In this document: positions 14,342-36,860 of the stretch, piece after piece
Numbering within the stretch: position 1 is the stretch's first letter
How the letters are laid out: the number at the start of each line of letters is the position of its first letter
Made by a program: the position numbers and the translations under genes
The notes under the pieces: model-generated
Seen by the model: the letters and a program-made list of their open reading frames with translations, nothing else
Database searches by the model: none
What the model was told of the DNA's origin: nothing
Assembly (NCBI GenBank): GCA_902774015.1
Contig: CACYHB010000002.1
Span: 1-64,000 of the forward strand
Source: Oscillospiraceae bacterium
Lineage (GTDB): Bacteria; Bacillota; Clostridia; Oscillospirales; Oscillospiraceae
Direction of reading: 5' to 3'
Length of the DNA stretch: 64,000 nucleotides

Positions 14342-14800
14342 ATGAAAATCGAATATCTTCCGGCGGACGAGACGGATGCTGCATCGATTCTGGAGCAGAG
14401 CCGGGCGCTGATCGAACGCTATGAGGATTTCAGCAGCATCGACATGGACGCGGTCTTTGCCTGGATGGAGCGGAAAACGGAGAAATGCATCGCGGAATAC
14501 AGCCGCATCCTCTGCGACGGGGAGACGGCCGGCTGGATCCGGGCCCATGACGACGGGGAAAAGCTGGAGCTGGACGATCTGTTCATTCTCCCGCAGTTCC
14601 GGAACCGCGGTATCGGTACGGCGACGCTGCGCAAATACCTCCGCGAGAGCGGAAAACCGATATATTTCTACGTGTTCTCGCAGAATGCGGGCGCTTTGCG
14701 CCTGTATGAGCGTCTTGGCTTTCGCGTAAGAGAGACGGTGAGCGACACACGCGTCATCATGGAACAAGAGCCTTGCCAGAAGACGACAAAGCAGTTATAA
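14342..14800 (+). CDS. GNAT family N-acetyltransferase
   Basis: 152 aa, one GNAT domain. The acetyl-CoA pyrophosphate loop Q/R-x-x-G-x-G/A appears as QFRNRGIGTATLRKYL at about 85-100, preceded by strand LELDDLFILP and followed by strand PIYFYVFSQN and the AGALRLYERLGFRV C-terminal motif. The substrate cannot be told; single-domain members acetylate amino groups of metabolites, antibiotics or protein N-termini. It starts 114 bases after ntpD with GGGGGAG before the ATG and may be read from the V-ATPase operon. Its stop codon lies at the left edge of structured repeat copy A. Confidence 0.88.
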   Translation: MKIEYLPADETDAASILEQSRALIERYEDFSSIDMDAVFAWMERKTEKCIAEYSRILCDGETAGWIRAHDDGEKLELDDLFILPQFRNRGIGTATLRKYLRESGKPIYFYVFSQNAGALRLYERLGFRVRETVSDTRVIMEQEPCQKTTKQL

Positions 14801-15005
14801 TGATCGTCGGATGTCGAAATCAATCGAGGCTTCGATTGATTTCGCTGTCAAACGACAGGTTCGGCAGCGAAGGATTCCTTGGAATCTTTCGCGCGATGTG
14901 CATTGCAGTGAATAAATGGCGCCCGGCCATGCTGCAGCGCTGAGCAGCAAAGCTGCCGGCGGAACGCTTTTTCGCGTTTTGCCATCCGACCTTCATTCAT
15001 AATAC
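14797..15005 (+). repeat. multi-hairpin repeat, copy A (~205 bp)
   Basis: Inverted and diverged partner of 16172-16380. Consecutive stems in this strand: 14815-14827 with 14832-14844 (13 bp), 14845-14853 with 14859-14867, 14868-14877 with 14882-14891, 14901-14905 with 14906-14910, 14944-14948 with 14952-14956, and 14958-14967 with 14974-14983. The ends TAATGATCGTCGGATG and GCCATCCGACCTTCATT form an imperfect terminal inverted repeat. Compared with copy B several paired positions change together or to G-T, so structure is kept while sequence drifts. Confidence 0.8.
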
Positions 15006-15025
15006 TCTCGAAAGAGGGCTTGTCC

Positions 15026-15757
15026 ATGGAACTGGAAAAGAAAAAGGGAATCTCCGGCGCTGTGCTCAAATGGGTCGCGGTAGTCTCCATGTTCGTAGAC
15101 CACTTCACGGCGGTGCTGGTGGAGGGAAGCTGGAAAATGGGGATCCGTGCGGTTTCCTATGACCAGTATCTTGTCCTGCGCGGGATCGGCCGTCTGGCCT
15201 TCCCGATCTACTGCTTTCTGCTGACGGAAGGATTGCTGCACACCCGGAACGTGAAAAAGTATCTGCTGCGTCTCGGGATATTTGCTCTGCTGTCCGACAT
15301 TCCCTTTGATCTTGCGTTCCGGCAGCGCTTTTTCGCCTGGGACTACCAGAACGTGTTCTTCACGCTCTGCTTCGGTCTGCTGGGGCTGAGCCTGTGGCGG
15401 CTCCTTACGGAGAAAAAGGATTTTCATGCCGCCTGGTGGCGTCAGCTGCTGGGGCTTCTGTGCATCGCCGCCATGGCGCTGGCCGCGGAACTCTGTCAGA
15501 CAGACTACGGCTGGCAGGGCGTGACGGTGATTTCCCTGATGTATCTGCTGCGTACGCTGCCGGCGCTGCGGGATGTGGGCAGCTTTGCCGTGCTGTATCT
15601 CTCCAGCCCGCTGGAGCTTGCCGCGCTGCCGGATCTGCTCCTGTTCCGGCTCTACAACGGCACCCGCGGCAGGCAGAGCAAATACTTTTTCTACGTTTTC
15701 TATCCCGCACATTTGCTGTTGCTGGCCGGCCTTCGCTGGTTCCTCTGGCGGATTTGA
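15026..15757 (+). CDS. TraX family membrane protein
   Basis: 243 aa with about seven hydrophobic helices. The N-terminal pattern KWVAVVSMFVDHFTAVLV followed by LRGIGRLAFPIYCFLLTEGL is the signature of the TraX family (Pfam TraX; F-pilin acetylase TraX is the named member). In Firmicutes such genes are chromosomal and not tied to conjugation; acyl transfer to a surface molecule is the likely activity but the substrate is unknown. The ATG at 15026 is chosen because AAAGAGGG lies 7 bases before it; an in-frame TTG at 15020 is too close. It lies between the two copies of the multi-hairpin repeat and ends at a bidirectional terminator. Confidence 0.85.
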   Translation: MELEKKKGISGAVLKWVAVVSMFVDHFTAVLVEGSWKMGIRAVSYDQYLVLRGIGRLAFPIYCFLLTEGLLHTRNVKKYLLRLGIFALLSDIPFDLAFRQRFFAWDYQNVFFTLCFGLLGLSLWRLLTEKKDFHAAWWRQLLGLLCIAAMALAAELCQTDYGWQGVTVISLMYLLRTLPALRDVGSFAVLYLSSPLELAALPDLLLFRLYNGTRGRQSKYFFYVFYPAHLLLLAGLRWFLWRI

Positions 15758-15776
15758 GCGAAGCAAAAAATGAAAA

Positions 15777-15815
15777 CGCGGCCTCCCTGCTTCTCACAGG
15801 GAGGCCGCGCTTTTT
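15777..15815. terminator. bidirectional terminator between convergent genes
   Basis: 13-bp stem CGCGGCCTCCCTG / CAGGGAGGCCGCG with a seven-base loop and a following CTTTTT; AAAA precedes it for the opposite strand. Confidence 0.88.
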
Positions 15816-15823
15816 GAAAATGC

Positions 15824-16150
15824 TCAGGCGGGTTCGTAGCTGCGGCTGATCTCCACGCCTTCGGCGTTATATTCCACGTCCTCCATCAGCATCGGATCGA
15901 CGCGGCTGCGCTTCTTCACCACCATGCCCTCACCCTGGTTGTTGAACACCCAGATGAAATAGCCGCGGAAATCGGGGTCAGGCTTGCGGAAGGCTCCGGA
16001 CTCGTTGAGCCGGCAGAACTTGGAGCGCCCCTCCGGGGTGTCCAGCAGATCGCCCGGCCCGGTGTAAAACAGCTCTTCCTTTGCCGCCTTCTTCTTGAAT
16101 TCTTCCCATTCCTCTTCGGGAACATTGTTCACGTCGTTCGGCTGATACAT
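15824..16150 (-). CDS. small conserved-looking protein of unknown function
   Basis: 108 aa, no family recognised. The protein is soluble and charged, starts MYQPNDVNNVPEEEWEEF, and contains a Phe/Trp-rich strand region (DPDFRGYFIWVFNNQGEGMV) followed by a basic VKKRSR stretch. No signal peptide or membrane helix is seen. The ATG at 16150 has GAGGG 6 bases upstream; the longer open frame to 16243 would run into the repeat element and is not believed. Its promoter would have to lie in or beside multi-hairpin repeat copy B. Codon use and GC match the neighbours, so it is probably a real gene. Confidence 0.7.
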   Translation of the reverse strand: MYQPNDVNNVPEEEWEEFKKKAAKEELFYTGPGDLLDTPEGRSKFCRLNESGAFRKPDPDFRGYFIWVFNNQGEGMVVKKRSRVDPMLMEDVEYNAEGVEISRSYEPA

Positions 16151-16171
16151 GATAACCCTCGCTTTTGCTGT

Positions 16172-16380
16172 TGAATGATTATATGATGGCGAAAAGACAA
16201 AAAGCTTTTCGCCGCGCCGCTTTGCGGCGCAGCAAAACAGCATGGCTTTTTTGCCATATATTCATTGCAATGAGCATCGGGCGAATGATTGAAAGAATCA
16301 TTCGCTGCCAAACCTGTTGTTTGGCAGCGGAATCAATCGAATCGTCGATTGATTTCGCCATCCGATGATCATTATATAGA
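16172..16380 (-). repeat. multi-hairpin repeat, copy B (~205 bp)
   Basis: Read on the minus strand it aligns end to end with 14797-15005. Stems: 16188-16196 with 16205-16213, 16214-16220 with 16224-16230, 16242-16246 with 16253-16257, palindrome CATTGCAATG at 16263-16272, 16281-16290 with 16296-16305 (10 bp), 16305-16313 with 16319-16327, and 16331-16340 with 16345-16354 (10 bp). The outer ends (AATGATTATATGATGGCGAAA and TTTCGCCATCCGATGATCATT) form an imperfect terminal inverted repeat. Most of the 313-base gap between the two flanking genes is this element; no open frame in it looks like a gene. Confidence 0.8.
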
Positions 16381-36507: not shown

Positions 36508-36860
36508 GCTCTTTCTCCCACATAAAACAAAAAGGTGACGTATACCCCTGGTATACATCACCTTGGAAAAACGTTCCAATTCCACGGCGTGCCGCGGCGT
36601 CTCGTTTTGGTTTCAGAGTCTATATAGCAAAGATTACTCTTACTACTCTTATTGACCATTTCACAAGTTTGTATACCGGTTGTTAGTAACCAACTTATAA
36701 AACTGCGCTCTTAACGCAATCAATAAGGCAACAGAAGTTGCCGCCGCGTTCCGCGGAGATTCGGCATTCGACCCGGCTGTCCGTATGGCCTTGGCTCCCG
36801 GTGCGAAAACACCGTTTGCGGTCGACATCCTGCTTCAGATAGACCCTATCCGATTGAGAC
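36508..36860 (-). promoter_or_regulatory. long structured 5' leader of potABCD
   Basis: About 350 nt between the promoter and potA with no gene. Visible stems: 36799-36803 with 36810-36814, 36727-36732 with 36737-36742 (GGCAAC / GTTGCC), 36563-36568 with 36574-36579 (TTGGAA / TTCCAA), and the large terminal hairpin at 36532-36564. A second copy of GTATACC at 36671-36677 could pair with the left arm of that hairpin. No riboswitch class I know was matched with confidence. Confidence 0.6.
36524..36564 (-). terminator. terminator-like hairpin just before potA (possible attenuator)
   Basis: Arms 36532-36546 and 36550-36564, 15 bp, loop of three; read leftward a T-rich run TTTTTGTTTT follows. The only non-Watson-Crick position is a G-U in the leftward transcript but a C-A mismatch on the other strand, so it is suited to RNA made toward potA. 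It ends 25 bases before the potA ATG. Confidence 0.8.

Follow-up and report, generated by a model that had tools for sequence, protein, structure and literature searches.

Correia elements, the miniature inverted-repeat transposable elements (MITEs) of Neisseria, are short, have inverted ends, are common just upstream of genes and are promoter-related. Sigma-70-like promoters in Correia elements, and promoter sequences of this kind in MITEAba12, BrickBuilt, QMITE1 and SonMITE_1, are reported in a 2024 review of prokaryotic MITEs (PMC10969869). Small size, inverted ends, a position near gene starts and a relation to promoters are also found in an element of about 200 bp, present in two copies (A and B) in the window analysed in this study, i.e. 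the whole stretch of 64,000 nucleotides at positions 1 to 64,000 of contig CACYHB010000002.1 from an Oscillospiraceae bacterium (GenBank assembly GCA_902774015.1). Unlike in Correia elements, the native -35 box appears to stay outside while the element end completes the -10 box, the body is a double cloverleaf and the duplication is probably AT. In Correia elements the duplicated dinucleotide is TA.

Other described systems share single traits with the element. In MITEAba12, BrickBuilt, QMITE1 and SonMITE_1, compared by description only as given in the same review, the promoter-like sequence is carried on the element, unlike here (PMC10969869). The pneumococcal repeats BOX, RUP and SPRITE, also compared by description only, are likewise small and treated there as MITE-like (PMC10969869). 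At fucAO of E. coli, an IS5 insertion similarly fuses flanking and internal sequence to form a promoter, but there a complete insertion sequence brought about activation in one event (PMC11894529), whereas the present family would do this routinely. In the literature titles and abstract openings that were screened, neither this family nor a bacterial MITE rebuilding a -10 box was described, and no Rfam family was matched, in line with the preliminary description of the window, which had recognised no named family. The double-cloverleaf family is apparently undescribed. To our knowledge, neither a double-cloverleaf plan nor a -10 target is known from BOX, RUP or SPRITE.

Copies A and B are quite probably two insertions of a non-autonomous, MITE-like double-cloverleaf element of about 200 bp, with a probable AT duplication, which often splits -10 boxes. 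That its ends often sit in promoter -10 boxes was missed in the preliminary description.

Structure of the element

The two copies lie in opposite orientation, as had been reported; they occupy 14797-15001 (plus strand) and 16172-16375 (minus strand) and share about 79% identity. When AATGA and TCATT are taken as ends, the features listed below are obtained; R1 is a search model built from 58 copies of the family.

14799..14997, plus strand: copy A, a diverged member, AATGA to TCATT (R1 match at 14797-14999, 145.8 bits)
14799..14904, plus strand: cloverleaf 1 of copy A (closing stem and three hairpins)
14907..14997, plus strand: cloverleaf 2 of copy A
14797..14798, plus strand: AT, left target dinucleotide of copy A (probable duplication, judged from the empty sites of other copies)
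14773..14778, plus strand: TTGCCA, resembling a -35 box, on the left side of copy A and 17 bp away from the TATAAT of the junction
14796..14801, plus strand: TATAAT, the -10 box formed where the left flank meets copy A (three bases of flank or duplication, then three bases of element end)
16174..16373, minus strand: copy B, near the family consensus (R1, 215.4 bits)
16269..16373, minus strand: cloverleaf 1 of copy B
16174..16266, minus strand: cloverleaf 2 of copy B
16374..16375, minus strand: target dinucleotide AT next to copy B on its 5' side

The general plan is a tandem of two cloverleaves, 1 and 2, each bracketed by AATGA on the left and TCATT on the right and separated from the other by two bases, about 200 bp in total; every cloverleaf consists of a closing stem and three hairpins. 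The terminal inverted repeats read ATAATGATNATNNGATGGCGAAA at both ends, with 23 motif matches in the genome of the window against none for a control pattern. Distant families differ considerably in their hairpin sequences but share the plan and the ends to a large extent. Predicted RNA folds are strong for both copy A (-99.5 kcal/mol, z -7.8) and copy B (-95.9 kcal/mol, z -9.7), and for each of them none of 200 dinucleotide shuffles folded as well.

In its details the structure differs from the earlier one. The stem GCAGC/GCTGC of copy A, which is GCCGC/GCGGC in copy B, is present as claimed, while CATTG/CAGTG, taken for a paired stem, belongs to the linker between the two cloverleaves (consensus TCATT-GC-AATGA) and forms no hairpin in the consensus fold. 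Instead of about five hairpins the consensus has eight helices (six hairpins and two closing stems). On this structure copy A carries 9 G-T, 3 A-C and 10 other mismatches rather than five G-T and one A-C; three pairs of the consensus are G-T themselves.

The element is short, present in many copies and without coding capacity, which bears out the earlier statement that it carries no gene. Its size, the lack of a gene, the inverted ends, the many copies and the empty sites described below also support the suggestion of MITE-like mobilisation by its ends. Internal deletions and nested inserts are common in the family, and solo cloverleaf derivatives exist. A variant of 355-356 bp, whose third hairpin is interrupted by 152 bp of inserted sequence, occupies four sites in one genome (L073, L103, L113 and L183), which indicates that changes to the body did not prevent spread as long as the ends were intact. 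This insert is perhaps another small mobile element that was later copied along. A different insert is carried by L144 and L178, and a mini-element of 64 bp (L372:269-332, genome G034) consists of little beyond the two ends and one hairpin.

Association with promoter -10 boxes

The spacing between the ends of the element and promoter-like sequence was tested on 156 copies, defined by end pairs 110-400 bp apart with a central CAATGA (one mismatch allowed). Loci of distant families were omitted and copies with identical 25-bp flanks were removed; two of the 156 left flanks were too short or contained N. The idea of a 17-bp spacing arose from ten copies of the genome of the window; eight copies of this genome are among the 156 tested and contribute one of the 29 ends reported here. 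With TATAAT at the junction taken as the -10 box, a hexamer starting with TTG was found at a spacing of exactly 17 bp for 29 of 310 ends (on 27 copies), where about 5 were expected. The excess was seen at left ends (14/154; control mean 2.1, maximum 6, p 3e-8) as well as at right ends (15/156; control mean 2.9, maximum 7, p 3e-7), while spacings of 15, 16, 18 and 19 bp remained within the control range (4, 6, 4 and 4 left ends; 1, 3, 4 and 6 right ends). The gene that follows reads through the element in 27 of these 29 cases, compared to a baseline of 189/312 ends (61%). Of 209 ordinary intergenic TATAAT sequences in the scanned loci, 59 have TTG at this spacing. After correction for controls, 15% of copies against 26% of such ordinary sequences would place about 60% of copies in a genuine -10 box.

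Both T-AT-AAT-like sequence and promoter -10 boxes are strongly enriched at the insertion sites. TATAAT is present in 40 of the 156 empty sites that are predicted when one AT is assumed, and 92 of the 156 agree with it at five or six of the six positions, as compared to 14.5% of control AT sites in the flanks. Insertion would split T-AT-AAT and duplicate AT, giving flank-TAT followed by AAT-element at the left junction and element-T followed by AT and AAT-flank at the right one. TATAAT would be rebuilt at both junctions because the element ends supply AAT and ATT, and the native -35 box would keep its 17-bp spacing. Insertions occur in both orientations. The promoter would then probably remain active, with the RNA beginning just inside the element and the gene gaining a structured leader of about 190 nt.

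A serious alternative, which we consider only somewhat short of an even prospect, is an ordinary MITE with a plain preference for AT-rich sequence (TTATAA), whose promoter location reflects harmless survivors and whose rebuilt -10 box is coincidental. Intergenic TATAAT is already promoter-like here, as shown by the 59 of 209 occurrences with TTG at 17 bp and by 209 intergenic against 56 coding occurrences, and AT-rich relatives combine a weak -35 signal with T as the base before the element at 48 of 55 ends. However, TATAAT is rebuilt on both sides by ends that are at least 93% conserved at the relevant bases (the end pattern allowed up to five mismatches), and AAYG/CATT-type ends recur across families. 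Three points weigh against the main reading. Conservation of the ends is inflated, since copies were gathered by the end pattern; the TTG signal is weak in distant families (4/55 ends, p 0.05, with a control maximum that is also 4); and the promoter bias could result from a TTATAA preference together with the selective loss of harmful insertions, with no need for dedicated targeting. Individual cases in the distant families are clear, e.g. TTGACA-17-TATAAT before an element in G034 (L369).

Empty sites and target duplication

Sites lacking the element were found in related genomes, showing that the element is inserted DNA. At the site of copy A this concerns the gap between a GNAT acetyltransferase gene and a TraX-like gene, which measures 229 bp in the window against 27 bp in G090. 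The genes around the two copies are the following.

14342..14800, plus strand: GNAT acetyltransferase gene, with its stop codon TAA within the junction -10 box
15026..15757, plus strand: TraX-like gene (PF05857, E 3.2e-45) downstream of copy A, with coordinates from a simple gene caller
15824..16150, minus strand: small gene of 108 amino acids directly downstream of copy B, without Pfam family match

The inverted copies flank exactly the TraX-like gene and the small gene, and a composite transposon that moved these two genes together would produce such an arrangement. This reading can hardly be upheld, as GNAT and TraX are adjacent without copy A in G090, G102 and G114, a decayed remnant of the element marks the site in G073, and homologues of the small gene have other upstream sequence in the relatives examined. 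In G090 the GNAT gene ends earlier, at TGA.

Without the element, the site of copy A reads TTGTCA-17-TATACT in G090 and TTGCCA-17-TATAAT in G114. The joined flanks of six copies from the genome of the window were searched in five relatives, which yielded eight alignments for five copies (none for L004). Empty sites of other copies read TATAATAG in L002, TTGCAA-17-TATAATGA in L010 and, on the other strand, TTGACA-16-TATAAT in L006. One AT (2 bp) between the flanks scored best in five of the eight alignments, e.g. in L002 (151, against 143 for 0 bp and 148 for 4 bp) and in L010 (200, against 191 and 198, respectively), while the other three favoured 0 or 4 bp. AT stands at both ends in 141 of 156 copies, copies A and B of the window excepted. 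The duplication is therefore probably a 2-bp AT, though not a clean one.

Several observations run counter to an AT duplication within -10 boxes. In L006 the margin is a single point (93 for 2 bp, 92 for 0 bp, 89 for 4 bp); only two of four L007 alignments are best at 2 bp, the others being best at 4 and 0 bp; and the L005 alignment is best at 0 bp. The empty sites of copy A itself do not decide the length of the duplication, its right-hand dinucleotide (14998-14999) reads CA, and the other end of copy B (16172-16173) also reads CA on the minus strand. Moreover, no recognisable -10 box is present in the empty sites of L007, and none is clear at the copy A site in G102. Site pairs among the collected loci were too diverged or represented independent insertions (L111/L123).

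Pairing and the question of an RNA

Paired positions of the element change together, as had been proposed from copies A and B. In the alignment of 58 copies, 88 cells were changed on both sides of a pair, compared to 16.2 +- 3.1 after shuffling, and 30 of 84 pairs were affected (shuffled mean 6.9). Sliding the partners by one to three columns left 15-20 such cells. Across families, 208 cells in 58 of the 84 pairs were changed on both sides (shuffles: 64.7 +- 6.4 cells in 29.5 pairs), in an alignment fitted to the structure, which favours covariation and takes weight from this last count. Pairing is really maintained in the family.

Covariation alone is no proof of an RNA. According to the preliminary description, selection probably acts on an RNA whose reading direction has AATCAATCGA first; a one-strand RNA should clearly favour G-T over A-C mismatches. 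In 119 of the 156 copies (198-210 bp, no N), counted at pairs with a Watson-Crick consensus only, 110 G-T and 100 A-C mismatches were present, with 46 and 47 distinct types, respectively. The spectrum is near-symmetric, so that an RNA in one direction is not supported. Raw totals lean towards G-T (192 vs 58) owing to three pairs whose consensus is itself G-T, and these were excluded from the final counts. Sorted by the nearest start codon within 150 bp, G-T/A-C counts were 46/54 for genes directed with the element and 40/33 for genes directed against it; a small G-T excess (24/13) was seen in copies without a start codon within this distance. The 15 diverged copies showed 26 G-T and 17 A-C, consensus G-T pairs included.

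Genes were called by a simple script rather than a standard gene finder, and contexts were taken from the 145 of 156 copies with both neighbours called. Fifty contexts were co-directional with the element, 30 against it, 52 divergent and 13 convergent. The 50 to 30 ratio represents a mild orientation bias (p 0.03). Gaps between convergent genes make up 22% of intergenic bases in the scanned loci but hold only the 13 of 145 copies. None of the 156 copies lies inside a called gene, and the nearest start codon is at a median of 40 bp (137 copies). Shine-Dalgarno-like words at offsets 9-14 outside the ends numbered 40 on the left and 45 on the right, with 16 and 15 expected from offsets 35-69.

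In principle, stable MITE transcripts might form riboswitches or terminators, as suggested in the review (PMC10969869). A cis-acting structured RNA, i.e. a leader or riboswitch-like element carried with promoters, would agree with the strong fold, the covariation and the position 5' of genes. We regard it as very unlikely, given that the element takes both orientations to a near downstream gene (66 copies with it, 53 against, without consistent orientation), that G-T shows no excess over A-C in either orientation, and that relatives have empty sites. The data fit maintenance of DNA palindromes. The hairpins would be kept perfect at the DNA level rather than as a one-strand RNA, either because an enzyme acting in trans recognises the folded DNA or through hairpin-templated repair. 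A palindrome of the REP/BIME type, mobilised by a single-strand transposase of the Y1 (RAYT-like) kind, would also be hairpin-rich and intergenic, with pairing kept without strand preference; the symmetric inverted ends, the likely AT duplication and the two orientations are a misfit to the REP/Y1 scheme as generally known, and make this origin highly improbable.

Distribution of the family

Many further copies were found in related genomes, beyond the pair in the window. BLAST gave 18 matches in the genome of the window, some of them second-strand or partial. A scan with an 18-base core revealed at least 116 stretches, mostly titled uncultured Ruminococcaceae, Oscillospiraceae and other Clostridia, several from rumen or gut; some core matches were due to chance, in unrelated phyla. 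At E <= 1e-5, and with no more than 24 candidates scored in each genome, model R1 had matches in 53 of the 102 genus genomes, in 10 of 295 of the order and in 4 of 391 of the class, the own genome included each time. A second model, R2, from the 15 diverged copies, matched 13 of 394 genomes of the order (G221 and G856 uninspected) and 3 of 391 of the class, again with the own genome included. Among the genomes listed for R2, none of the 20 that belong to the same family but to other genera had the element. With the ends verified by eye, the element is present in the family of the window and, as diverged relatives, in ten more families of the class (f10, f11, f16, f18, f20, f21, f23, f26, f43 and f89).

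Matches in G359, G374 and G748 were set aside on inspection, as were L226, L227 and L342, which are GC-rich hairpin arrays without family ends; one of these arrays of perfect hairpins from other class genomes has a similar cloverleaf-like plan with different ends. Two viral contigs held the 18-mer, neither matching the model, and copy B had no match in the plasmids or phages searched. At the starts of many contigs of G228 (C3, C8, C12, C16, C46, C69, C85 and C86) end motifs lie about 115-141 bases in, an indication that contigs assembled from short reads tend to end within copies and that counts of copies are too low.

Mobilisation

Serine resolvase core sites read TTATAA with a central AT. 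The present element resembles them in its AT-core dinucleotide within TTATAA and in its palindromic junction. The AT core, the symmetric ends and the two orientations fit a serine recombinase or a DDE enzyme. The mover would be an AT-core enzyme, either a serine recombinase, by which a circular TCATT-AT-AATGA junction would be joined to TTATAA, or a DDE transposase with a 2-bp duplication.

It speaks against the proposed mobilisation that no autonomous partner or enzyme gene was found in the parts scanned, where pairs were sought by eye without enzyme-family search in incomplete metagenome-assembled genomes. The scan covered the own genome, G042 and G085 fully and G087 in part. The only long inverted end pair, in G042 (L322), was partly masked, with a solo cloverleaf 2 at one end, and was rejected; none of its listed reading frames was transposase-like by eye, no family search being made. 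Ends were also listed in five distant genomes and scanned in twelve regions of G034 and G280, with frames listed in two, and no transposase was seen.

It is conceivable, although rather doubtful, that a class-wide family has specialised for -10 boxes, rebuilding TATAAT and being nearly harmless, with a double cloverleaf, kept in shape over at least 11 families, that is read by a recombinase. Sequences diverge under a conserved shape, without preference for G-T over A-C, which raises the question whether the mobilising enzyme reads folded DNA. If the proposal is true, a promoter-repairing parasite would explain how hairpin-rich repeats can pile up before genes without silencing them, and many genes of gut and rumen bacteria would get a similar structured leader of 190 nt.

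Surroundings of copies A and B

Each of the two genes between the copies is closely preceded by an element that points the same way as the gene, and both copies would therefore be transcribed with cloverleaf 1 first. The leader of the TraX-like gene would contain copy A. Between the TraX-like and the small gene, a strong short inverted repeat at 15773-15814 resembles a shared bidirectional terminator. Elsewhere in the window, positions 36761-36824 (minus strand) matched the Rfam family SpF59_sRNA (RF02440) with 58.2 bits, above the gathering score, in a genome that is not Streptococcus-like.

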